Source of the DNA: Salinigranum marinum
GTDB taxonomy: Archaea; Halobacteriota; Halobacteria; Halobacteriales; Haloferacaceae
Length of the DNA stretch: 64,000 bases
NCBI RefSeq assembly: GCF_024228675.1
Contig: NZ_CP100461.1
Location: 248,001 to 312,000 of the forward strand
Reading direction: 5' to 3'
Of the stretch, positions 3,712-27,102 are shown piece by piece; within the stretch, counting starts at the first letter, position 1; every line of letters starts with the position of its first letter. A model generated the notes under the pieces. The model saw only the letters and a program-made list of their open reading frames with translations. It ran no database searches and was not told where the DNA came from. Made by a program: the position numbers and the translations under genes.

Positions 3712-6186
3712 ATGCGAGACAGGTCACCCCTTCGACTAATCGCCGTGTTCGTCTCTGTCCTGGTCGTGACCGGGGCGATACCGGCCGCGGCCGTAGGAGC
3801 GTACACTGACACTGACAACCCGGTCGAGCCGCGCGAAGCGGTCTCGGCTGGCTTCCAGGACGTTTCGAGCAACATCGAGGTGTGGGACCGCGCGGCGCTC
3901 CCACTCCGTATCGACTCCGACAACGGTGACACCGTCGTCGGAAACGTCGACCAACAGGTGAGTATCGAGCAGCTGAACATCGACCGGGCGCGGCTCGATA
4001 CGGGCGACATCGCCGTGTACGACGATCAGGCGACGCTCGATCTGGAGTTCGAGAGCAAGACCTTCGCGTCGACCGGCCAGTTCGCCAATCAGGACGCCCA
4101 GCTGATCGCGGCGCACATCGACGGCAGCAGCGGTCAGACGGACGCGCTGGACTCGAACTCGCCGGCCACGGCGAACCAGCTGCTCTCGCTGCTGACCGCC
4201 GAGGGCGCGGAGTTCGATCTGGTCGAGAACTACGGAACCCTCGACGGCAACGGCGAGCTGACCGGCTCGTACGACCTCGGTGACGAGGACCAAGGCCCCG
4301 GCTTCTACGTGTTCTTCCTCGTGCAGGACTACGACCAGGAGGCCGGAACCTGGGGCGTCACTGACAGTGGCTTCGAGGAGAGCAACGGCGACCTCAGCGT
4401 CTCCGGTGACGCGCGCGTGCTCGGCCTCGACACGGCGATGGTCCACGAGGAGTCCTCCAGCGCCACGCCCGAGCAGCAATCGTACGCCGCGGGCTCGGAC
4501 GTCACCTTCGACGTCGACGGCGACGAGGGAGACGCCACGACGCACGCGATCGTCGTCTACGACGAAGAGGAGTTCGAGGGACGCGACGTCATCACGGAGA
4601 TCGACGGAAACCTCAACGGTGATCTGAGCGCGGACCAGGTGACGGTCAGGCGCGAGATCGAATCCGTCAGAGGTGTCGCGTCGGTCCAGAGCTCGCTCGA
4701 CACTCCCGGCGTCGGGGCGCTCGGTGATTCCCGCGTCTCGGGGGTGTTCAGCGGCGCACAACTCGTCGAGTTCGTCGCCGACCAAGCGAACGCCGAGGAT
4801 CCCCTCGACGAGACGACGGACGACTCCATGACGCTCGACGCGTCAGTTACGGTGGCCCCGAACACCAACGGCGAAGGGGTCCGGGTCGGAACGCTCTCCG
4901 AGTGGGAGCCCGGTGAGTACACTTACGTCCACATCGCCTCGGGCGGAGACTCCGGGATCGAGACCACGTCGGGAACGGTGACCATCACCGAGGCCGAGGA
5001 AGAAAACCCAGGTCTCAGCAAGATGCTCGAAGGTGAGCGTGGGACCAAGTTCCAGATGCCGTCCGGCGGCAGTGTGACCGAACTCGGTCTGGAGTTCGGC
5101 AGTGAAGTCAGCGGGATGGTCACGGTCTCCGAGCGCGAGAGCGCACCGGAGGACTCGCTGAACGCGCAGGAAGGCGTCGAGGACCCGGTCTACCTCGACA
5201 TCACCGCGCCGAACGGCGAAGGTGAGACGATCATCACCGCGACGTTCCAGAAGTCCAGCCTCGACGGTCTCGATCCCAACGACTTCTCGCTGTGGAACTA
5301 CAGGGACGGCCAGTGGGTCCAGCTCGAGACGACCCTCCTTTCGGAGACCGAGACGACCGTGACGTACAGAGCGGTCACGACCAGTTTCTCACCCTTCGCG
5401 CTCGGTGAGTCGGTGGACGGCTCCGATGGATCGTCGCCGAGCGAGTCGGTGACGGCCGACGGCGACAGCAGTGACAGCGACATCGAAGCGCTGCTCCGGA
5501 CGTCGCTCGACGGCGTCTCCTCGGGCGACTTCACGGTCGGTGAGGGGAGCGACGTCCTCGAGAGCCTCTCGATGGAGTTCGACGGTGAGTCCAGCGGCGA
5601 TCTCGTCATCCGCGAGTTCGACCGCCCCGCGGGCTACACCGACTACGAGGGCGAGAACGACCAGATCCTGACGGTGGTCGACCTCGAACCGCCGACGGAC
5701 GTCCGCTACGATTCGGGCAGCGTCACGTTCGAGCTGAAGCAGTCCGCGCTCGACTCGCTCGGCGTCTCCGCTGACGGGCTGCAGATCCAGGCGTACGACA
5801 CCTCGTCGGGCTCGTGGGACACCCTCGAGACCGAAGTCGTCGCGAGCGACGACGAGACCGCGACGCTCCGTGCCGACGTGTCGGACTTCGGCACCTACGT
5901 GATCTCGCGCGCACCGGCTCAACAGCAGACGACGGCGACGCCGACCGAGACGGCGACGCCCGACGACACGGCCACCGAGACGGCGACCGAAGCGCCCGCA
6001 GCCGAAGAGGAGACGGCGACGGCCGAACCCGAGATGGAGACGGAGACGGACGTCCCGCAGGCCAGCGGGAGTGACGAGAGCTCGACGGAGACCACGTCGA
6101 CGGAGTTCCCCGGTCTCGGAATCACCGTGACGATCGTGGCGTTCGTGATGACGCTGCTCGCGCTGGGCCGGCGTCGGCTCGAGTAG
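3712..6186 (+). CDS. Large PGF-type surface glycoprotein with two PGF-pre-PGF-like domains
   Basis: This protein has 824 residues. A signal peptide covers residues 1-30 (hydrophobic LIAVFVSVLVVTG, ending after AAAVGA). Beta-rich acidic domains follow to about residue 430. Two tandem domains then resemble the PGF-pre-PGF domain: about 445-565, with NDFSLWNYRDGQWVQLET and TTSFSPFALGE, and about 590-735, with LQIQAYDTSSGSWDTL and VSDFGTYVIS. A Thr/Glu/Ala-rich stalk (about 740-795) precedes the C-terminal FPGLG motif, a hydrophobic helix and RRR. FPGLG is close to the PGF-CTERM signal processed by archaeosortase A, so covalent lipid anchoring is plausible but not certain. Start chosen from the signal peptide and TATA spacing. 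Confidence 0.85.
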   Translation: MRDRSPLRLIAVFVSVLVVTGAIPAAAVGAYTDTDNPVEPREAVSAGFQDVSSNIEVWDRAALPLRIDSDNGDTVVGNVDQQVSIEQLNIDRARLDTGDIAVYDDQATLDLEFESKTFASTGQFANQDAQLIAAHIDGSSGQTDALDSNSPATANQLLSLLTAEGAEFDLVENYGTLDGNGELTGSYDLGDEDQGPGFYVFFLVQDYDQEAGTWGVTDSGFEESNGDLSVSGDARVLGLDTAMVHEESSSATPEQQSYAAGSDVTFDVDGDEGDATTHAIVVYDEEEFEGRDVITEIDGNLNGDLSADQVTVRREIESVRGVASVQSSLDTPGVGALGDSRVSGVFSGAQLVEFVADQANAEDPLDETTDDSMTLDASVTVAPNTNGEGVRVGTLSEWEPGEYTYVHIASGGDSGIETTSGTVTITEAEEENPGLSKMLEGERGTKFQMPSGGSVTELGLEFGSEVSGMVTVSERESAPEDSLNAQEGVEDPVYLDITAPNGEGETIITATFQKSSLDGLDPNDFSLWNYRDGQWVQLETTLLSETETTVTYRAVTTSFSPFALGESVDGSDGSSPSESVTADGDSSDSDIEALLRTSLDGVSSGDFTVGEGSDVLESLSMEFDGESSGDLVIREFDRPAGYTDYEGENDQILTVVDLEPPTDVRYDSGSVTFELKQSALDSLGVSADGLQIQAYDTSSGSWDTLETEVVASDDETATLRADVSDFGTYVISRAPAQQQTTATPTETATPDDTATETATEAPAAEEETATAEPEMETETDVPQASGSDESSTETTSTEFPGLGITVTIVAFVMTLLALGRRRLE

Positions 6187-15853: not shown

Positions 15854-16729
15854 CTACGCGATCCGTTCGTGTGCTGCTGAGAGTGCCCGCTCGGTATACG
15901 CGGGGAGGAGACCCTTGCGATACTCGCTTGAGGCCTGCTCATCGGACATGATCCGCCGCTCGTCGAGATCAGTGCCCGCATGTTCTGCAGCGTCCGCAAG
16001 CGCGCTCGTCTCGAGAGGTGCCCCTTCGAGTGCTTCTTCAACGGGGTCGAGTCTCACCGCGTGATCCAGTACCCCGTTTACGGCGACGCGGGCAGACTCG
16101 ATCGTCTCTCCATCGGTCCAAAGCACTGCCGCGACACCGACCATGGCGTACCCCGAGGACGGACTGCGTTTCTTCACGTAAGCCCCAGCATCGGTCGGGC
16201 CGTAGTCTGGCACCTCGATCCACGTGAGGAGTTCAGTGCTCTCCAGCGCAGTCGTGAATATCCCCTCGAAGAAGTCGTCCACGTCCACCTGGCGTTCGCC
16301 GCTCGATCCGTGGATGTGGAGTCGAGCGTCTGCAGCTAGGACTGCAGCAGGGAGGTCTGCGGCTGGATCTGCGTGTGCGAGGTTACCGCCGATCGTCCCC
16401 ATGCTTCGGACCTGCACATCACCGATCTCACTGGCCGCCTCCGCGATGACGGTCGCCCGATCCCAGAGCGCTTCGTCGTCCGTGAGCTCCGCATACGACG
16501 TGAGCGAGCCGATCCGAGTCGTGTCGTCACCCACCTCGACACCGCGGACTTCGTCGAGGCGTCCGATGTCGACGACCGTCTCGACATCCGTGAGTCCCGA
16601 TTTCATCAGGGGAACGAGGCTGTGTCCCCCCGCGAGCACCTCGATCTCTCTGTCCTCGTGCTTGTCCAAGAGTTCGACGGCGTGCTCGACGCTTTCGGCG
16701 CGCTCGTAGCTGAACGTCGGCGGGTACAT
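15854..16729 (-). CDS. coxM: Molybdenum hydroxylase FAD-binding (medium) subunit
   Basis: A 291-residue protein of the CO dehydrogenase medium-subunit family. The FAD-binding motifs are AGGHSLVPLMK (about residues 33-43) and TIGGNLAHADPAADLP (about 112-127). The C-terminal domain (about 180-290) is the usual CoxM C-domain. It passes electrons from the iron-sulfur subunit to an acceptor at the membrane. Its ATG shares one base with the stop codon of the large-subunit gene (TAATG), so the three genes S-L-M form one leftward operon. Symbol by family only, because the substrate is probably not CO. Confidence 0.85.
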   Translation of the reverse strand: MYPPTFSYERAESVEHAVELLDKHEDREIEVLAGGHSLVPLMKSGLTDVETVVDIGRLDEVRGVEVGDDTTRIGSLTSYAELTDDEALWDRATVIAEAASEIGDVQVRSMGTIGGNLAHADPAADLPAAVLAADARLHIHGSSGERQVDVDDFFEGIFTTALESTELLTWIEVPDYGPTDAGAYVKKRSPSSGYAMVGVAAVLWTDGETIESARVAVNGVLDHAVRLDPVEEALEGAPLETSALADAAEHAGTDLDERRIMSDEQASSEYRKGLLPAYTERALSAAHERIA

Positions 16730-19128
16730 TACGATTCACCTCCGGGTCCAGTCTCGGACTCCTGGATGGCCGTCCAGATGACCTCGTCAGTGACCGGCAT
16801 ATTCACGTGATCGATGCCGAACGGTTCGAGAGCGTCGACAACCGCGTTCACGACCGCCGGCGGTGCCGCGAGCGTGCCAGCCTCTCCAACCCCCTTCACC
16901 CCGATCGGATTGTGCGGTGAGGGGGTGACCGTACTGTCCAGTTCGAGTTCCGGAACGGTGTTCGTCTTCGGGAGCCCATAGTCGAGAAGCGTCGCTGTTC
17001 GGATATTCCCGCGGTCATCGTAGACGGCCGCCTCCGATCGCGCCTGTCCGATGCCCTGTGCGACCCCGCCTTGCACCTGCCCCTCGACGATCTGGGGGTT
17101 GATCTGTTCACCGCAGTCATCGACTCCCACGTATCGCACGAACTCGAGTTCGCCCGTCGCAGGATCGATCTCGACGACAGCGATGTGTGTTCCGAAGGGG
17201 AACGTGAGGTTCTCGGGATCATAAAAAGAGGTCTCCTCAAGCCCCGGTTCCATCTCGTCGGGCAGGTCGTGCCCGAGATACGCCTCCGCGGCAATCTCTT
17301 GGATAGTCATCGAGCGATCCGGTGCCCCAGTCACGGCGAACGCACCGTCCTCGAAATCGATATCTTCGAGCTGGACCTCCAGTTGGTGTGCCGCGATCTT
17401 CCGACCTTTCTCGACGACTTTGTCTGCTCCCCGGGCGACGGCGCCTCCACCGACCGGCCCACTCCGGGAGGCGTAGGTTCCTTGCCCGTGTGCAATCTGA
17501 TCGGTATCGCCTTCGACCACTTCGACGTCGTCGTACGGGACCCCGAGTTTGTCCGCGACGATCTGGGCGAAGGTGGTCTCGTGTCCCTGTCCGTGGCCGG
17601 ATGTCCCACAGAACGCCGTCACGGTGCCCGAGGGATGGACACGAATCGTGCTGTTCTCCCAGTAGCCACTTTGCGCTCCGAGCATCCCGCAGATCGCCGA
17701 GGGGCCGAGCCCAGACATTTCAATGAACGAGGCGACGCCGATCCCCAGATAGCGCCCTTCCTCTCGGAGTTTCGCTTGCCGGCCGCGTAACGCCTCGTAG
17801 TCGACCATCTCGAGCGCTCTGTCCAGTGCTGGCTCGTAGTCGCCACTGTCGTACAGCATCCCGGTGACCGTCTCGAACGGGAACTCGTCCGCCGAGATGA
17901 AGTTCCGTCGGCGGATTTCGACCGGGTCGATCCCCAGTTCCGTCGCGGCCGTCTTCATGAGCCGTTCGAGCAGGTGTGTGGCGTCGGTGAGGTTCGCCCC
18001 GCGGTACGCGTCTACGGGTGCGGCGTTCGTGAGGACGCCCCGAATCCGACAGTGAGCCGCATTGAGATCGTACGGCCCGGACAACACGCCCCAGTACTCG
18101 TCCGTTGGGAGTGCGGGGAGCAGACAGGAGACGTAGGCACCGAGGTCGACGTGGCCGGTCACCCGGACCGCCCGGACGGTCCCGTCGTCGTCGATAGCGA
18201 GTTCCCCCTCCTGTGCTAACCCCCGACCGTGAGCGTCGGTTTGACTGGCTTCGGACCGTGGCGCAATCCACTTCACCGGCCGTTCGAGGTACATCGCGAG
18301 CCAAGCGGTGATCGCCTCGTCGGCGTAGTGGTAGATCTTGCTCCCGAACCCCCCGCCGACATCGGGTGCGACGACCTGGATTTTGTGCTCCGGATAATCC
18401 AGCACCCGTGAGAGGAGGCTCCGATGCAAGTGCGGGTTCTGGCTCGTCATCTGCAGTTCGAGTTTCCCGCTTGACCCCGAGTAGGTCGCGAGCGCACCAC
18501 GGGTTTCGATCGATGTCGGGAGGATGCGTTGGCTCGGGAGCTCGACGCTGAATGTGTGGTCGGCCGCCTCGAACTGCTCATCGGTCGCCTCTGCATCACC
18601 TTCCTCCCAATCGAAGACCACGTTATCAGGCGCTTCGTCGTGGAGCGTCGGAGCGTCCGCTTCCATGGCGTCGAAGGGGCTCACAACGGCGTCGAGCGGC
18701 TCGTAGTCAACGTGGATCTGGTCACGTGCGTTGTATGCCGTGTACCGGTCTTCCGCGATGACGACCGCGATCGATTCGCCCTGATACCGCGCTCGGTCCC
18801 CCACGATGACGCGCTTCCAGAACGCCTCTGGGATCTCGAAGTCGGTGAAGTGCCAGATGACTGGTATATGTCCCGGAGTCGGCAGCGCTGCAGCCTCGAA
18901 ATCCTCGGCGGTCAGGACATCGATGACCCCCTCGACTTCCTCCGCACGACTGGTGTCGATGTCGTTGATCTTGGCGTGGCCGTGTTGACTGCGAAGGATC
19001 GCGATATGGCACATCCCCGGCTCTTCTAGGTCGTCGACGTAGCCCGCATCGCCCGTGATTAGCTCGGGGTCTTCTTTTCGCTCGACCGTTTTTCCGAAGT
19101 ACTTGCCTGCGGGGGCCGTCTCACTCAT
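16729..19128 (-). CDS. coxL: Molybdenum hydroxylase large (molybdopterin) subunit, CoxL family
   Basis: Starts at MSETAPAGKYFG, fixed by an eight-base overlap with the small-subunit gene; 799 residues. Molybdopterin-binding motifs are VGGGFGSK (about residue 265), GQGHETTFAQIV, TYASRSGPVGGGA and the catalytic Glu in GVKGVGEAGT (about 749). The active-site loop reads AYRGANL at about 374. True CO dehydrogenases (form I) have AYxCSFR and form II proteins AYRGAGR, so this enzyme lacks the Cu-binding Cys and even the form II Arg. It is probably an aldehyde, purine or other heterocycle hydroxylase. Symbol marks family, not CO oxidation. Confidence 0.85.
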   Translation of the reverse strand: MSETAPAGKYFGKTVERKEDPELITGDAGYVDDLEEPGMCHIAILRSQHGHAKINDIDTSRAEEVEGVIDVLTAEDFEAAALPTPGHIPVIWHFTDFEIPEAFWKRVIVGDRARYQGESIAVVIAEDRYTAYNARDQIHVDYEPLDAVVSPFDAMEADAPTLHDEAPDNVVFDWEEGDAEATDEQFEAADHTFSVELPSQRILPTSIETRGALATYSGSSGKLELQMTSQNPHLHRSLLSRVLDYPEHKIQVVAPDVGGGFGSKIYHYADEAITAWLAMYLERPVKWIAPRSEASQTDAHGRGLAQEGELAIDDDGTVRAVRVTGHVDLGAYVSCLLPALPTDEYWGVLSGPYDLNAAHCRIRGVLTNAAPVDAYRGANLTDATHLLERLMKTAATELGIDPVEIRRRNFISADEFPFETVTGMLYDSGDYEPALDRALEMVDYEALRGRQAKLREEGRYLGIGVASFIEMSGLGPSAICGMLGAQSGYWENSTIRVHPSGTVTAFCGTSGHGQGHETTFAQIVADKLGVPYDDVEVVEGDTDQIAHGQGTYASRSGPVGGGAVARGADKVVEKGRKIAAHQLEVQLEDIDFEDGAFAVTGAPDRSMTIQEIAAEAYLGHDLPDEMEPGLEETSFYDPENLTFPFGTHIAVVEIDPATGELEFVRYVGVDDCGEQINPQIVEGQVQGGVAQGIGQARSEAAVYDDRGNIRTATLLDYGLPKTNTVPELELDSTVTPSPHNPIGVKGVGEAGTLAAPPAVVNAVVDALEPFGIDHVNMPVTDEVIWTAIQESETGPGGES

Positions 19129-19609
19129 GGCTGCCTCCCGAGTGCATCTTTTCCGCTGCCGATTCGACCGCGTTGACGATGTTTTGATAGCCGGTGCATC
19201 GACAGAGATTACCCTCGAGCCCGTCACGGATCTCCTCGCGAGTCGGATCCGGGTTTTGTTTCAAGAGATCGACTGCGGTCATCATCATCCCCGGCGTGCA
19301 GTAGCCACACTGGAGACCGTGTTCCTGACTGAATCCCTCCTGAATTGGATGCAGTTCTCCATTGGTTTTCAGTCCCTCGACGGTCTCGATCTCGGCTCCG
19401 TCCGCCTGCATAGTGAGGAGTGTGCAGGATTTCACCGGTTTCCCATCCATCAAGACGGTGCAGGCACCGCAAACACCGCTTTCACAGCCGATGTTCGTGC
19501 CCGTGTAGCCCAGTTCCCCGCGTAACGTATGCACCAGCAATCGACTCGGCTCGATGCTGATCTCGTGCTCGTTCCCATTAACCGTCAGAGAAACGTCTTC
19601 GCGTCGCAT
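19121..19609 (-). CDS. coxS: Molybdenum hydroxylase small [2Fe-2S] subunit
   Basis: A 162-residue protein with both iron-sulfur clusters. The plant-type ferredoxin motif is CESGVCGACTVLMDGKPVKSC (first Cys at about residue 42) and the helical-domain motif is CGYCTPGMMM with CRCTGYQN (about 100-140). It is normal in length and composition for the CoxS/XdhC family and carries electrons from the Mo centre to FAD. It is the first gene of the operon; the AT-rich region just upstream of 19609 (about 19620-19660) should hold the promoter. Confidence 0.9.
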   Translation of the reverse strand: MRREDVSLTVNGNEHEISIEPSRLLVHTLRGELGYTGTNIGCESGVCGACTVLMDGKPVKSCTLLTMQADGAEIETVEGLKTNGELHPIQEGFSQEHGLQCGYCTPGMMMTAVDLLKQNPDPTREEIRDGLEGNLCRCTGYQNIVNAVESAAEKMHSGGSHE

Positions 19610-20298: not shown

Positions 20299-20829
20299 TC
20301 AGGCGACCCCTTCGTCGACGGGATTATCCCGTCGGGAGCGCCGGAGATCACGAATCTCTCTGCGAATCGCGGCCCAGTTGTTCAGGTCCAACCAGACCGT
20401 TTCGGCGTCGCCATACTCTCCGTACTCCAGCGGGTCGATTTTATTGGGCTTCTCGACATCGTACGTGTCCCGATACGCTTCGTCTTCGGAGAGCAGTTCA
20501 CCGAGTCGGTTTCGGTACTCGTCGTCGTCCAGTTCCGAGAGTCGATTGAGTCGCCGCCACTCGAAGTACGACTCGTTCCGCTCAAACGTCTCCGGGTTTT
20601 CAGTCACCCGCCTCAACACGCCGATGTCTGCGAGTCGTCGCAGATGCCGCCGGGCCGAGTTCTTCGAACAGTCTGCTCGCTCTGCAACCTCCACAACACG
20701 AGTTGGGGTGTTGAGTTCGAGTGCGGTCCGGTACACTCGTTCGTCTGCCGGAGCGTTGTCGAGTCGTTCACCGAGGTCTTCGGAGAAGTCCGAGGAGGGC
20801 GGACCACGTTCGTCGTCGGAGGCGTTCAT
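20299..20829 (-). CDS. Winged-helix regulator of module 1 (DUF7342-like)
   Basis: A 176-residue protein; ATG at 20829 is preferred to the GTG two codons earlier. A winged helix covers about residues 30-85, with RVVEVAERADCSKNSARRHL as helix-turn-helix and LRRVTENPETFERN as wing. A charged helical tail (ELLSEDEAYRDTYDVEKP, AAIRREIRDLRRSRRD) probably dimerises. Paralogous regulators occur at 26.5 and 35.5 kb. It likely represses its own two-gene operon; an AT-rich element lies at about 20840-20865. Confidence 0.7.
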   Translation of the reverse strand: MNASDDERGPPSSDFSEDLGERLDNAPADERVYRTALELNTPTRVVEVAERADCSKNSARRHLRRLADIGVLRRVTENPETFERNESYFEWRRLNRLSELDDDEYRNRLGELLSEDEAYRDTYDVEKPNKIDPLEYGEYGDAETVWLDLNNWAAIRREIRDLRRSRRDNPVDEGVA

Positions 20830-21113
20830 GAGCACTAGTACAGAATACTGATGAATATAATTAGCGCTCGTTCATAGATATGATCGATAGTCGATCAGGA
20901 TGAAACAAGAGAGACGACGACTGGGTAGACGTCGTCGAGGTACTTTCGCCGCTGTTCCACCTTCTCGCGCTCACACCTTGTTCAGGAACAGTGTACTGAA
21001 CGTCAAGAAGAAATCCAGCACTGGTTAGAGTTCACAGCCACTCCCCATCCTCTGAAACGTCTCATTCCTCCCGAGTAGGAACTTTGAGGGAGGCGACAAG
21101 AGAGTAGAAAATC

Positions 21114-21559: not shown

Positions 21560-21751
21560 TCAGCAGCAGTCGCTACCAGCGTCGCAGACCTCGCCGTACT
21601 CGAGTCCGGTCGCCTCGTTGATGGCTTCGGTGCACTCTACGAGGACCGACTCGAACTCGGACCGCGTCGACTCCGACTGCAGCGTCTGGAGTGTCTTCCC
21701 CAGGGTGTCGGCAGCCGTCAAGACGTCCTCGTCAGGAGTACTCAACAGCAC
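21560..21751 (-). CDS. Small Cys-tailed protein of the ars locus
   Basis: A 63-residue acidic helical protein that ends in YGEVCDAGSDCC. The three Cys in the last eight residues, two of them adjacent, would suit soft-metal or metalloid binding. It starts with GTG and overlaps the end of the YlbF-like gene by ten bases, so it was the last gene of an arsD-arsA-ylbF-like operon. No family recognised. The function (As or Sb sequestration or delivery) is inferred from context and the Cys tail only. Confidence 0.6.
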   Translation of the reverse strand: MLLSTPDEDVLTAADTLGKTLQTLQSESTRSEFESVLVECTEAINEATGLEYGEVCDAGSDCC

Positions 21752-22089
21752 CCACCTCCGCGCGACTGTGCGAATTCCTGACCGATTCGTTCGCTGATGA
21801 CGTCGTTGGTCTGTTCGAGGAGGGCGACGAGTTCTGCCCGCGCGTCTCGGTGCTCTTGGATTGTCTCGTTGTTTTCAATTTCGGTCTGGAGGTCTCGCAA
21901 CTCACTCATGACTGCGGGGTCGAATTCGCCGTCCTGCAGCGCGTCCTGCTTCTGTTGGTACGTCTCGAGCAACTCGATCGACTCGGAATCTGCTTCGAGT
22001 TCCTGCTGGGCCTCCACGAACCGCTGGTACGTCTCGGAGTCGCAGAGCGTCTCGAGGTGCTCCGTTGAATGCCGACGCTGTCTGCGGAT
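21742..22089 (-). pseudogene. YlbF-like protein with CC tail, 3' part, split by IS insertion
   Basis: A frame continuous with EHLETLCDSETYQRFVEA (reading from about 22065) and continuing to the stop at 21742. It shows the YlbF/YmcA helical pattern (ELRDLQTEIENNETIQEH) and ends RGGGCC. It has no own start except an internal GTG at 22017. The missing 5' end is found at 23162-23230, on the other side of the IS5-type element, starting MSESRTEAPAVETKLQ. The intact gene would encode about 130-140 residues. In Bacillus YlbF-type proteins assist RNA processing; the CC tail here points to a metal-related role. Confidence 0.6.
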
Positions 22090-22130
22090 TATATCGTTGA
22101 TTTCAGGGGAATTGGACGCCGTCGGGCGGT

Positions 22131-22946
22131 ATGGGACGTCTCAGGAACCTTGCACAGACGTTTCAGGAGTTCGCCACGAGCCACGTTGAGGAACCGGATG
22201 TACCCGACGTCGCCGACGGCGACGACGGGTACGACGACTCCACGAAGATCGCACTGCTCTTGCTCAAAGAAGAACTCAACAAACCCCTCAGGCAGTTCGA
22301 AGACTACCTGAACGAGATGCCCGGTATTCTCGACGTCTTCGGCCTTGAGAGATCTCCTGATTTCACGTCGTTCAGCGTGTGGGACAGAGAATTTCCGATG
22401 AAAGAGCTGCGCCGCCTGCTCCGCCGAAGCGCGGAGCAGGCGGGGCTGTCGGGAACTGCATCAATCGACGCCAGTGGCTTCCAGCGTGATCAAGCAAGCT
22501 CGCACTACCGCAATCGTGTCGGCTACTCGTTCAATGCGATGAAAACTACGCTGCTCGTCGATACGGAGTCACTTGCGGTTATGGACGCTCATTTCACGAC
22601 AAAGAAAGCCTATGACGGCCATATCGGGCTGCAGGTCTTTCGGCGGAACGCCGAAGACCTGCAGACGCTGCTGGCCGACAAGATGTACTCATGGAGCGAT
22701 CTCCGAGATGCCTGTCGTGAATCGTCAACGCGTCCAGTGATCAAACACTGCGAACAAAATGCGCTCAAGAAGGCTCACAACGCTCGAATTGACGACGAGG
22801 TCTACAACCAACGGTCGATGAGTGAAACAGTGTTTGCGATGCTAAAGGACGGCGGCGACGAGATCCGCTCCCGGAGCTGGCATGGCCAGTTCCGGGAGCT
22901 CACGCGCAAGTGCATCGTACATAACCTCGAGCAGGCGGCGAGTTAG
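22131..22946 (+). CDS. IS5-family transposase
   Basis: An intact 271-residue DDE transposase. The first Asp lies in SGTASIDASGFQRD (about residue 108), the second in DLQTLLADKMYSW (about 183) and the Glu in RSMSETVFAML (about 236). The N-terminal half has the helical IS5 region (KIALLLLKEELNKPLR). A decayed relative lies at 61.5-62.2 kb. The gene ends inside a perfect 12-base stem. Confidence 0.85.
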   Translation: MGRLRNLAQTFQEFATSHVEEPDVPDVADGDDGYDDSTKIALLLLKEELNKPLRQFEDYLNEMPGILDVFGLERSPDFTSFSVWDREFPMKELRRLLRRSAEQAGLSGTASIDASGFQRDQASSHYRNRVGYSFNAMKTTLLVDTESLAVMDAHFTTKKAYDGHIGLQVFRRNAEDLQTLLADKMYSWSDLRDACRESSTRPVIKHCEQNALKKAHNARIDDEVYNQRSMSETVFAMLKDGGDEIRSRSWHGQFRELTRKCIVHNLEQAAS

Positions 22947-22960
22947 GGCTCGCCGCCTGC
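22931..22960. terminator. Strong hairpin at the end of the IS5-type transposase gene
   Basis: gcaggcggcgag (22931-22942) pairs perfectly with ctcgccgcctgc (22949-22960) across a six-base loop that contains the stop codon. It may terminate transcription or shield the element from outside transcription. Confidence 0.5.
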
Positions 22961-23161
22961 TCTCCTTCTCCGGATGTATCCGAGAGAGGCATCGCCATCG
23001 TCCAGTTCATCCTTTGTGTGGTATCTTGTGAAACTGATGTTTTGATTACCGCGCAAGCAGGCTGAAATCGAATCGATTGATCTGAAAATCTGGCGAGGGA
23101 GCGTAGCTACTGGCGGAAAATTGCATGTCATAATTTTGATTCCGACGCTATCTTGCGTTCA

Positions 23162-23230
23162 ACACTGCATCTCGAGGAACGCCTGAAGCTTCGTCTCGAC
23201 GGCGGGCGCTTCGGTTCGACTCTCGCTCAC
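23162..23230 (-). pseudogene. 5' fragment of the split YlbF-like gene
   Basis: A GTG overlaps the arsA stop codon (GTGA) and opens a frame MSESRTEAPAVETKLQ, FLEMQC, which stops at the IS boundary. The coupling with arsA and the composition show it to be the start of the YlbF-like protein whose remainder lies at 21742-22089. Confidence 0.55.
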
Positions 23231-25161
23231 GACGCCGTCACCTCCTCGTGTTTCTCCTCACGGACGCCAGCCAAGCCAGCAATCACCGCACCGAACGAGC
23301 GGAGTTCGTCCAGCCCAACCGGTTCGTCTCGTCGAAGCGGTGCGAGCATCATCGGCGCGTCGAACCGGTCGCTGATCTCGTCGAGGTACCGTTCCTGCTG
23401 GGCACGACGGTTCTCGAAGAAGGCGTTGTCACCGTACTCCTGGGGAAGGAGGTAGTTTGCCACGACTAGCGAAGTCTCGATACCGACTTGATCGCGCAGG
23501 TCTTCCGCCGCCCGGTACGCTTCCATCATCGGTGTATACTCGGGGTACATGACGAACGCGAACGTGCTCTTGTCGGGGTTCTGCATCGTCTCGATCACGT
23601 CGTCGTACTTGCCTTCCTTCTCCGGTGCAGCCCCTTTCGTCAGCGACCCGAGGTCCATGAAGCCCTTCCAGTCCGACGGGAGTTCGAGCAGTCGGAGCGT
23701 GTGACCGGTTGGTGCGGTGTCGAAGACGACCACGTCGTACCCGTCTTCGTCGAAGTAGCTGACGAACTTCTCGAGCGCCGCCATCTCTTCGGCACACGGC
23801 GACTCCAGTTCTTCCTCGACGTTCTGGATTGCGGCGTCGACGTCGATGGCGTCGTCGTCTCGCTCCTCGTACATCTCGGTGACGTGGTCGAGAACGTTCG
23901 TCCGGTACTCCTCGAGCGCCTCCTCCTGATCGATACGGGCCGCGTCGAGGTTCTCCTGCCCGACCGACGTGGGGTCGTGACCGACCGGTTCCTCGAAGAT
24001 ATCTTCCAAGTGGGCTGCCGGGTCGGTCGTCACGACGAGCGTCTCGTAGCCTCCTTCGGCGAGTGCGGTCGCCGTCGTCGAGGCGATAGTGCTCTTTCCG
24101 ACGCCGCCCTTCCCAGTGAAAAAGAGGTACCGTGTCCCGTCGACCGGTTTCAATTGTTCTGCAACGGCATCGGGGTCGGTGAGTTTATTCAGGTCCACCG
24201 CACGCCCGTCCGTCGTCGCGTCGGGTGCTGTCCCGACATCGACGGTGGCGTCCTCACCGTCGTAGAGGACACCGCCGACGTCCGAGAGCAGGTCGAGCCC
24301 GGTGATCTCGCCCGGCTGGAGCGGATAGGTCGCGAGGGCCTGTTCGTCGAACGTCGCGGCGACGCGGTCGATGACCGACTGTTCGTCCGCGCGCTTCCCC
24401 TCGAAGAAGGGGTCTTCACAGACCGACTCCGGAAGATAGCCGTTGACGACGAGCAGCTGAGATTCGATTCCAAGGTCGGCGAGGTCTGCGGCACTCCGTT
24501 CGACCTCGTCGATCGAAGAGGCTTCGGGCTTGCCGACGAAGGCGAACGAGGTTCGGTCCTCGTCTTGGAGCGTCTCTATGGCACGCTCGTAATCGGCTTT
24601 CTTGTCCTCCATGGAGGCTGCTGGACCGATACACGTCGACCCGCCCTTTTCGAGTTCCGCGTTCCAGTCAGAAGGGAGTTCCATCAGGCGGATGGTGTGT
24701 CCGGTCGGTGCAGTGTCGAAGACGACGACATCGTATTCAGGGCTGTCCATGAAGTCGACGAAATTGTCGAAGGCGGCGATCTCCTCGACACATGGACTGT
24801 TGAGTTGCTCCTCGACTGTTTCGAGGTGCTCGTCGTCGAGCAGTTGCCGCATCGGCTCGATCGTCTCCTGGCGGTACTCCTCTGCGGCGGCGTCCGGGTC
24901 GATTTCGATGGCCGAGAGGTTTTCGACCTCGTCGATTCCCGTAACCTCGTGACCAATGTTCTGGCCAAAGATGTCGGAGAGATTCGGCGCTGGGTCGGTC
25001 GTCACCAGCAGTGTGTCGTAGCCGTTGTCGGCCAGCCAGGTCGCAGTCGCACAGCTGACGGTACTCTTGCCGACGCCGCCTTTTCCGCTGAAGAAGACGA
25101 ACTCAGTCGCTTCGTCCGTCGGTTCGACGACCGCGCGGGCGTCGGTCAGTGTGGCGGTCAT
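23227..25161 (-). CDS. arsA: Arsenite/antimonite efflux ATPase ArsA
   Basis: A 644-residue protein with two homologous ATPase halves. P-loops GKGGVGKST lie at about residues 26-34 and 348-356. DTAPTGHT signal-transduction motifs occur in both halves. Metalloid-site Cys candidates are in NSPCVEEI and GSTCIGP in half 1, and ESPCAEEM in half 2. It starts at MTATLTDARAVV; the longer frame reads through arsD in another frame. In bacteria ArsA energises the ArsB pump and receives As(III) from ArsD; no arsB is in this window. ATGA overlap with arsD shows an operon. Confidence 0.92.
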   Translation of the reverse strand: MTATLTDARAVVEPTDEATEFVFFSGKGGVGKSTVSCATATWLADNGYDTLLVTTDPAPNLSDIFGQNIGHEVTGIDEVENLSAIEIDPDAAAEEYRQETIEPMRQLLDDEHLETVEEQLNSPCVEEIAAFDNFVDFMDSPEYDVVVFDTAPTGHTIRLMELPSDWNAELEKGGSTCIGPAASMEDKKADYERAIETLQDEDRTSFAFVGKPEASSIDEVERSAADLADLGIESQLLVVNGYLPESVCEDPFFEGKRADEQSVIDRVAATFDEQALATYPLQPGEITGLDLLSDVGGVLYDGEDATVDVGTAPDATTDGRAVDLNKLTDPDAVAEQLKPVDGTRYLFFTGKGGVGKSTIASTTATALAEGGYETLVVTTDPAAHLEDIFEEPVGHDPTSVGQENLDAARIDQEEALEEYRTNVLDHVTEMYEERDDDAIDVDAAIQNVEEELESPCAEEMAALEKFVSYFDEDGYDVVVFDTAPTGHTLRLLELPSDWKGFMDLGSLTKGAAPEKEGKYDDVIETMQNPDKSTFAFVMYPEYTPMMEAYRAAEDLRDQVGIETSLVVANYLLPQEYGDNAFFENRRAQQERYLDEISDRFDAPMMLAPLRRDEPVGLDELRSFGAVIAGLAGVREEKHEEVTAS

Positions 25162-25493
25162 CGCGAGGCCTCCTGGGGCTGCGTGTGGTCTTCGAGGATG
25201 GATTCGAGTTCGTCGTAGCCGAGATACTCGGACTTTCCGACGATTTCGTCGTCGACGACCGTGATGGGGAGAATCGACGGTCCGTGCGCTTCGACGAGGT
25301 CGGCGATACGCTGTGTCTGGAGGAACTGGTCGATGTCGTGTTGCATGTTCGCTCGCGAGACGTCGACGTCTTCGAACGCCGCCTCTAACTGGTCGAGGGC
25401 GGCGCTGACTTCGACGAGTTCGTCGTCCGGGTCGGGTCCGCAGACGCCGGTGGAACAACACATCGCTTCTTCGTACAGGGTGAGTTCGGTCAT
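25158..25493 (-). CDS. arsD: Arsenic metallochaperone ArsD
   Basis: A 111-residue protein with the essential CC pair in YEEAMCCSTGVCGPD (residues 12, 13 and 18, exactly the E. coli ArsD positions) and a thioredoxin-like fold (LPITVVDDEIVGKSEYLGYDE). It delivers As(III)/Sb(III) to ArsA and may also act as a weak repressor. It is the first gene of the leftward operon arsD-arsA-ylbF-like-Cys tail. Confidence 0.92.
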   Translation of the reverse strand: MTELTLYEEAMCCSTGVCGPDPDDELVEVSAALDQLEAAFEDVDVSRANMQHDIDQFLQTQRIADLVEAHGPSILPITVVDDEIVGKSEYLGYDELESILEDHTQPQEASR

Positions 25494-25718: not shown

Positions 25719-25738
25719 ATCTTAGAAATATCTAAGAT
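25719..25738. promoter_or_regulatory. Palindromic operator in the arsR-arsD intergenic region
   Basis: atcttaga (25719-25726) and tctaagat (25731-25738) form a perfect inverted repeat with a four-base AT spacer. It lies 75 bases upstream of arsR and in the shared region with the divergent arsD. A dimeric ArsR would fit such a site, so control of both genes is inferred. Confidence 0.55.
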
Positions 25739-25812: not shown

Positions 25813-26205
25813 ATGTCATCGACCGAGCGACTGCAGCGATATCTCGCAAGCGAACGGGGTGAGTGCGGTGATGGTGAGGTCACCGAACGACTAGCCGAAC
25901 TCGAAGAATGGGACGAGATCGCTGGCGGCCCAAATCTCGAAGAGGATGTCGGGGTGCTCTCAGCACTCGCCAACGAAACTCGGTACAAGATCGTCCGCAT
26001 TCTCCACGTGGCTGAGGAGGAACTCTGTGTCTGTGAGTTCTCTCCACTTCTCGACGTCAGCGACAGCGCAATAAGTCATGCCCTCTCCCAGCTCACAGAC
26101 GCCGGGTTACTCACCCGTCGAAAGGACGGGAAGTGGCGCAAGTACCGGGCTACGCCGAGAGCGAACGCTGTTCTCGTTGCACTCGACGGCTCACGGAAGT
26201 TGTGA
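25813..26205 (+). CDS. arsR: ArsR-family metalloregulator
   Basis: A 130-residue protein. The winged helix covers about residues 45-115: LSALANETRYKIVRIL, the As-binding motif ELCVCEF (two Cys spaced as in ArsR), recognition helix VSDSAISHALSQL, and wing TRRKDGKWRKYRATP. It is divergent from arsD-arsA, the usual ars arrangement. On binding As(III) it would release the shared operator. The N-terminal 40 residues, with CGDGE, are an extra acidic extension seen in some haloarchaeal ArsR proteins. Confidence 0.88.
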   Translation: MSSTERLQRYLASERGECGDGEVTERLAELEEWDEIAGGPNLEEDVGVLSALANETRYKIVRILHVAEEELCVCEFSPLLDVSDSAISHALSQLTDAGLLTRRKDGKWRKYRATPRANAVLVALDGSRKL

Positions 26206-26287: not shown

Positions 26288-26500
26288 TTAATCACTCATG
26301 ATCTCAACCGAACACGAATGGTATTCGAGAGCGACAAACCGACGAGATGGCGCTGAATACCCACTTGAATCGCGAACTCGGGTGTCTGTTGTCGCTCCAC
26401 AAATTCCAACTCGATCCACTCGGTAAGTTCGCCGAGGCGGTCGATTTCGGGCATAGAACATTCGAACATCGACCGCCTCGGTCCTCACGTAACACGACAC
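26288..26500 (-). mobile_element. IS6-type transposase 5' fragment (relic)
   Basis: Reading leftward gives MPEIDRLGE, WIELEFVERQ and IQVGIQ, which equals the N-terminus of the IS6-type copy at 55.8 kb, after which the match is lost. A stray end of about 200 bases remains; not functional. Confidence 0.6.
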
Positions 26501-26547
26501 AGTATATTTGTCCCAAGGCTAATATGCTTATGCGAGAGAGCTACTGT

Positions 26548-27102
26548 ATGACCAACGCCCCCGCCGACGTGAACGAGCGCGTTACCGAGGAGTGGAAGTC
26601 CGAGACCACTCCCGGCGAGCGCGTCCGCACGGTAATGAAGCGGACGTACGAACCGCAGTCGGTTGCTGCGATCGCCGAGCGTGCGCTGACTTCAGCGACG
26701 ACCGCACGCAAGCACCTCGGCATCCTCACCGAGGACGGCTACGCTGAGGCAGTCACTCCCCCGGACAAGCGCGGGACGTGGTACAGACGTGCTCCCCGCT
26801 CGGTCGTCCTCGAACGTGCCCAGCAGATACTCGACTCGGTCGATGTCGAGACACTGTCGGCACGCGTCACGGAGCTTCGCGAAACCGTTCGTGAGTTCGA
26901 GGAACAGACAGGAGCAGAATCACCACGCGCCGCGGCCATCGCTGAAACGGATCTGGACTCGGAGACGATGACGGAGTGGCAGACAACACGTCGGAACCTG
27001 AAGCTCGCACGGGCTGCACTCGCGCTCGCGGACGCGACTGACGTTGTCGGAGACGACGCCGGATCGGACGGCCGGGGCGACCCGGCCGGTGTCATCGGCT
27101 AA
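26548..27102 (+). CDS. Winged-helix regulator of module 2
   Basis: A 184-residue protein from MTNAPADVNERV. The longer frame would read through the IS6 relic; in-frame ATGs at 26524 and 26530 are less likely. Helix-turn-helix SVAAIAERALTSATTARKHL and wing AVTPPDKRGTWYRRAP span about residues 40-90; a coiled-coil region (VTELRETVREFEEQ) follows. Paralogues are at 20.3 and 35.6 kb. A TATA-like tatattt with flanking atatt/aatat symmetry at about 26502-26523 is a likely self-operator. Confidence 0.72.
   Translation: MTNAPADVNERVTEEWKSETTPGERVRTVMKRTYEPQSVAAIAERALTSATTARKHLGILTEDGYAEAVTPPDKRGTWYRRAPRSVVLERAQQILDSVDVETLSARVTELRETVREFEEQTGAESPRAAAIAETDLDSETMTEWQTTRRNLKLARAALALADATDVVGDDAGSDGRGDPAGVIG

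Follow-up and report, generated by a model that had tools for sequence, protein, structure and literature searches.

HcsL and HcsS, two small proteins with paired cysteines at their C-termini, very probably serve archaeal ArsD-ArsA as functional accessory subunits. Their genes are real and form a conserved part of arsDA loci in haloarchaea; a few methanogens have the pair as well. In the window (the whole 64,000-nucleotide stretch of Salinigranum marinum DNA analysed here) an intact four-gene arsD-arsA-hcsL-hcsS operon is not present; hcsL is broken there by an insertion sequence (IS).

The genes and other features of the ars locus are presented in Table 1. The window genes scored above the cut-offs of all three relevant NCBIfam models (HcsL, HcsS and ArsA_halo). 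For HcsL this was reached by the 3' part alone, which ends in GGGCC, the gene itself being split, and HcsS likewise carries a C-terminal CC. Given these scores and a dN/dS of about 0.3 for each of the two, we take hcsL and hcsS to be real genes. The YlbF-like frame ending in GGGCC and the 63-residue protein ending in CDAGSDCC, both called from the letters alone in an earlier note on this DNA, correspond to HcsL and HcsS, respectively. The same note had regarded this extension as undescribed among ars components, which does not hold, as NCBIfam and RefSeq already name HcsL (NF041416) and HcsS (NF041415), termed "halo-CC-star", and ArsA_halo (NF041417). The order arsD-arsA-hcsL-hcsS is also found on RefSeq plasmids, including pNRC100 of Halobacterium NRC-1, and the window differs from these named loci in its split hcsL. 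Our literature search returned no paper on, or function assigned to, HcsL or HcsS, and it covered few subscription journals, so a published description is possible.

Table 1 Features of the ars locus in the window
Feature	Position	Strand	Evidence or remark
hcsS, 63 codons, half-length YlbF-like, ends CDAGSDCC	21560..21751	-	NF041415 88.1 bits (cut-off 55)
hcsL 3' part (YlbF/RicF-like), start codon lost	21742..22057	-	NF041416 143.8 bits (cut-off 140); PF06133 57.1 bits (gathering cut-off 23.9)
GGAGGTG, Shine-Dalgarno-like, inside hcsL tail codons	21753..21759	-	sequence; putative site
8-bp target-site duplication TCTCGAGG	22050..22057 and 23170-23177		copies flank the IS
IS5-family element, 1,112 bp	22058..23169	+	imperfect terminal inverted repeats TGC...GTTGAAyGC; ends and target-site duplication
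IS5-family transposase gene	22131-22946	opposite to ars genes	NF033579 192 bits
hcsL 5' remnant (VSESRTEAPAVETKLQAFLE)	23170..23230	-	GTGA overlap with arsA stop; span includes one copy of the target-site duplication
arsA, two-domain ATPase, ArsA_halo type	23227..25161	-	NF041417 1162.7 bits (cut-off 800)
arsD, As(III) metallochaperone (Cys12, Cys13, Cys18)	25158..25493	-	NF033727 110.8 bits (cut-off 90); PF06953
arsR-type regulator gene, divergent from arsD	25813..26205	+	NF033788 75.8 bits (cut-off 55)

The arsD and arsA genes overlap by ATGA, and the divergent arsR-type gene holds the same position in relatives. The three cysteines of ArsD (12/13/18) were invariant in 57 of 57 sequences, as were ArsA Cys 37, 124, 177, 248 and 456 in 55 of 55; the invariant metal-site cysteines of ArsA are presumably those known as C113/C172/C422 in R773. 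From this invariance, the classical ArsD-ArsA relay looks intact. Between arsR and arsD lies a perfect inverted repeat, ATCTTAGA-N4-TCTAAGAT (25719-25738), which was not found upstream of arsD in 29 relatives and was rejected as a conserved ArsR operator. DUF7342 helix-turn-helix proteins are encoded on both sides of the ars region (20299-20835, minus strand; 26347-27102, plus strand), and genes beside the locus (16729-19609) encode the large subunit of a molybdopterin-type dehydrogenase and, next to it, a 2Fe-2S-like small subunit.

The IS5-type element interrupts hcsL after about codon 20. Because the related copies in the same genome, an 11-copy family, are only 73-74% identical to it, its ends were defined by the target-site duplication, the terminal repeats and the restored hcsL frame. 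When the element was excised by script and the flanks were joined, an uninterrupted hcsL of 122 codons was obtained, the length seen in relatives. The first 20 hcsL codons remain behind arsA, and the present frame terminates inside the element after 23 codons. The earlier note had placed arsD, arsA and both small genes in one operon with GTGA coupling; the genes and the GTGA are there, the latter being the ancestral arsA/hcsL overlap, whereas the operon is not unbroken, with the element separating arsA from the remainder of hcsL. A profile search of the source genome with the HcsL model revealed no second hcsL, the sole other match being a housekeeping YlbF of about 60 bits. Since hcsL is split, normal formation of the proposed HcsL-HcsS complex is ruled out in the present strain, which represents a natural hcsL disruption that can be compared with intact relatives.

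To describe the linkage of the pair to arsD-arsA, 145 haloarchaeal genomes were searched with profiles at curated cut-offs. ArsD was above its cut-off in 30 of them and HcsL and HcsS were present in all 30, a co-occurrence without exception in the 145 genomes (Fisher p 5e-28, phylogeny ignored). ArsA_halo was detected in 32 genomes, 31 of which hold HcsS. A further 66 loci, all in Halobacteria, came from scanning named genomes; among them the gene order arsR(-) arsD arsA hcsL hcsS recurs, and the 4-nt arsA/hcsL overlap is possible in every locus that holds arsA (64/64). The pair is therefore conserved across the synteny survey, as expected from the earlier note. Haloarchaeal copies of hcsL or hcsS away from intact ars genes were mostly remnants, and those without ArsA were either remnants or an hcsS that had lost hcsL. 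The ars cassette has collapsed in one locus (L075, near 4787-5008), where ArsA residues 86-118 lead into a remnant of HcsS.

HcsS matches were also obtained in five genomes from a different class of the haloarchaeal phylum, and as mcrA was found in four of them (the fifth is 66% complete), the carriers outside haloarchaea are methanogens. In two genomes of this class, arsR-arsD-(AhpD-like)-arsA-hcsL-hcsS-acr3 lie on one strand (L186 7710-12188; L187 5279-9883), and a third carries arsR-arsD-arsA-hcsL-hcsS. The AhpD-like protein between arsD and arsA has a CEKCF motif. Methanogen HcsL proteins score 91-103 bits, below the NF041416 cut-off, and therefore receive no name from the NCBIfam model; the HcsS tails of methanogens, including CAPAGGCDCGGKC and CAPPTCGCGGTC, have four cysteines. 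One further methanogen genus (two related genomes) carries two tandem pairs of HcsL-HcsS-like genes with no ars genes nearby (L188 6429-7713; L189 6273-7557), and its HcsL-like tails, GGCY and GGCR, have a single Cys.

HcsL belongs to the Com_YlbF family (PF06133). Its AlphaFold2 model (pLDDT 87) matched RicF/RicA best (TM 0.78, rmsd 1.9 A over 112 columns), with modest Foldseek E-values (1.7e-3), and a search of the HcsL profile against the PDB returned YmcA, RicF, RicA and YheA (2pih 2.8e-7, 6prk 3.2e-7). HcsS alone had no Pfam match, and no meaningful match in the PDB by sequence or by model. When the two profiles were compared with hhalign, HcsS aligned to HcsL residues 64-122, including the tail (95%, E 3.9e-8, a single comparison), and the NCBIfam models of the two gave weak cross-hits. 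HcsS thus appears to be a half-length YlbF equivalent to the second half of HcsL, a remote homology indicated by one profile comparison and these cross-hits. Both Cys-tailed proteins were probably derived from one fold, like RicA and RicF (YmcA-YlbF) of the Bacillus Ric/Y-complex, which the pair resembles in fold, in the Com_YlbF domain, in the Cys of the C-terminal tails and in having two paralogous subunits. It differs from RicA-RicF in the half length of HcsS and in a partner gene that is arsA instead of ricT. RicT/PSP1 (PF04468) was found in none of 59 haloarchaea searched, the Bacillus control being positive, so membership of a Ric complex fails.

HcsL ends in GGGCC in 65 of the 66 scanned loci, a set partly selected by the GGGC pattern, and in all 30 HcsL proteins collected independently by profile. 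The HcsS tail follows the pattern C-x4-6-CC, conserved with no known overlapping gene to force it. Its last Cys is kept in >90% of sequences and CC in 58 of 64, about 6 of 64 missing one tail Cys (SC, GC, DC or CG), and the middle Cys is Tyr in one subclade. The tails are thus conserved across relatives, as the earlier note supposed, and their loss would have counted against it. The housekeeping YlbF proteins of haloarchaea, such as G000:C1:1072533-1072865, score about 60 bits against NF041416 and are Com_YlbF-type with a paired-Cys tail, like HcsL; in 14 of 14 cases GGCC or GACC is followed by two or three terminal residues. Unlike HcsL, they end in GGCC(Q/E)D or GACCQD and have neither an HcsS partner nor linkage to ars. 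An ars-specific gain of the HcsL tail is thereby ruled out, and because unlinked proteins share the paired cysteines, the tail alone makes no case for a metalloid carrier. The carrier role suggested in the earlier note loses that argument and may still hold on other grounds, namely the strict ArsD-ArsA linkage, the HcsS C-x4-6-CC, the four-Cys methanogen tail and the Ric precedent; the alternative role as sensors found no specific support. In 4 of 14 loci (L172 1287-2423, G000 chromosome; L173, L177, L181), the gene of the housekeeping YlbF is followed by that of a MinD/ParA-type ATPase (GGKGGxGKT), an echo of HcsL beside ArsA.

At the hcsL/hcsS junction, the TTG at 21745, 7 nt after GGAGGTG, may be the real start of hcsS, and the DNA of the hcsL tail probably doubles as the hcsS ribosome-binding site. 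TGC TGT TGA is invariant at the nucleotide level in 30 relatives, though substitutions at third bases would leave the proteins of both frames unchanged. This invariance favours the explanation that GGGCC owes its conservation chiefly to the hcsS start and ribosome-binding site, which lie in its DNA (GGAGGTGGGTGCTGTTGA). We consider that explanation very improbable, since the HcsL CC is kept in methanogens although hcsL and hcsS do not overlap there, and so is not forced by the overlap; unlinked housekeeping YlbF proteins have it as well, and the HcsS tail would be left unexplained. The CC tail as a sole artefact of the overlap is thus ruled out, and the DNA constraint, weakened by the methanogen loci, remains a contributing influence on codon choice.

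We propose, with a probability of about 0.42, that archaeal ArsD-ArsA has HcsL and HcsS as obligate accessory subunits, which form a Ric-like complex with an As(III)/Sb(III) thiolate site; linkage, homology, fold class and Cys conservation were computed, and from these we infer the complex, the ligand and the direction of transfer. In this proposal, HcsL, a full-length YlbF, and HcsS, its second half, would both derive from the YlbF (RicF/RicA) family and would form a helical complex in the manner of RicF and RicA. The flexible tails, GGGCC of HcsL and C-x4-6-CC of HcsS, would then meet to build one As(III)/Sb(III) thiolate site, which would buffer the metalloid and exchange it with either ArsD or ArsA; ACR3, where present, would be the exporter. 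A precedent for YlbF tails that converge on a metal is the Ric complex, where a single cluster is ligated jointly by tail cysteines from RicF and RicA and by a vicinal RicT Cys (PMC6751060); HcsL-HcsS may resemble Ric in having tail cysteines at an interface. Several observations stand against the proposal: the HcsL CC is common to housekeeping YlbF proteins unlinked to ars, so the chemistry may be another, such as Fe-S; some HcsS lack one tail Cys; the tandem pairs of methanogens have no ars genes nearby; and the HcsS model has no PDB match and the AlphaFold2 tails are disordered. A mode of action based on an As(III)/Sb(III) thiolate site, with metal binding presumed, accordingly remains tentative, at somewhat less than even odds.

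In a rival explanation, the pair would hold an Fe-S cluster like RicA-RicF-RicT and, instead of being a metalloid carrier, would regulate the ars ATPase or ars mRNA in response to redox state or metalloid damage. The RicF/RicA fold, the layout of the tail cysteines and a CC tail that predates the link to ars would agree with this, as would the attack of As(III) on Fe-S proteins. We regard this as rather unlikely given the absence of RicT from the 59 haloarchaea searched and the linkage of the pair, within haloarchaea, to ArsD-ArsA only; moreover, ligation of one Fe-S cluster by vicinal cysteines is undocumented with one possible exception (PMC6751060).

Compared with the ArsD-ArsA-ArsB/ACR3 pump, the window system is alike in the cysteines of ArsD and of the ArsA metal site and differs in its two extra YlbF-type subunits and in its exporters. 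ArsB was found in none of the 145 haloarchaeal genomes, the source genome included, and no ACR3 was detected in the source genome at E 1e-20, so that neither known membrane partner was identified there. ACR3 was present in 7 of the 30 cassette genomes vs 70 of the 115 others (p 4e-4, phylogeny ignored). An avoidance of ACR3 by the cassette was considered and dissolved by genus (in the largest, g2, 3 of the 9 genomes with the cassette have ACR3 and none of the 6 genomes lacking the cassette), and the difference was taken as shared ancestry. In genus g22 (G003, G012, G018, G023, G035, G067, G094, G127), seven genomes have ACR3 and no hcs cassette, and G018 has the cassette and no ACR3. The cassette, we conclude firmly, needs neither ACR3 nor ArsB. 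In another explanation, HcsL-HcsS would act as structural adaptors, either for the assembly of ArsA or for its docking to a membrane exporter, with Cys tails as docking peptides or Zn(II) binders. Deletion of the RicF or RicA tail abolishes RicT binding (PMC6751060), acr3 directly follows hcsS in two methanogens, and the strict ArsA linkage with its 4-nt overlap would fit such a role. Against it, the loci do not all share an exporter and the tail cysteines are more conserved than docking alone needs, and we think it unlikely.

A gene for an LMW phosphatase lies within 10 kb in 34 of the 46 loci with full flanks, and the vicinal-Cys tails could accordingly be thiol electron donors for an LMW-phosphatase-type arsenate reductase. 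The phosphatase is missing near the other 12, and HcsL-HcsS track ArsD-ArsA rather than the phosphatase, which leaves this role with little chance.

Knockouts in Halobacterium NRC-1 had demonstrated that the plasmid arsADRC region confers arsenite and antimonite resistance, with no role for a putative chromosomal arsB, and a novel arsenite pump was proposed (PMC1447603, PMC3600143). In NRC-1, annotated hcsL and hcsS adjoin arsA within this cluster; the sections consulted of PMC1447603 and PMC3600143 do not discuss them. They are the obvious genes to examine next behind the unexplained NRC-1 exporter. In archaea without ArsB and ACR3, HcsL-HcsS might even link ArsA to export as a second class of arsenite/antimonite thiolate carrier, one derived from YlbF, and thus belong to the pump postulated for NRC-1, a suggestion we hold to be doubtful. 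If HcsL and HcsS do bind As(III), a role in metalloid handling would be added to the Fe-S clusters and RNA processing for which the YlbF family is known.
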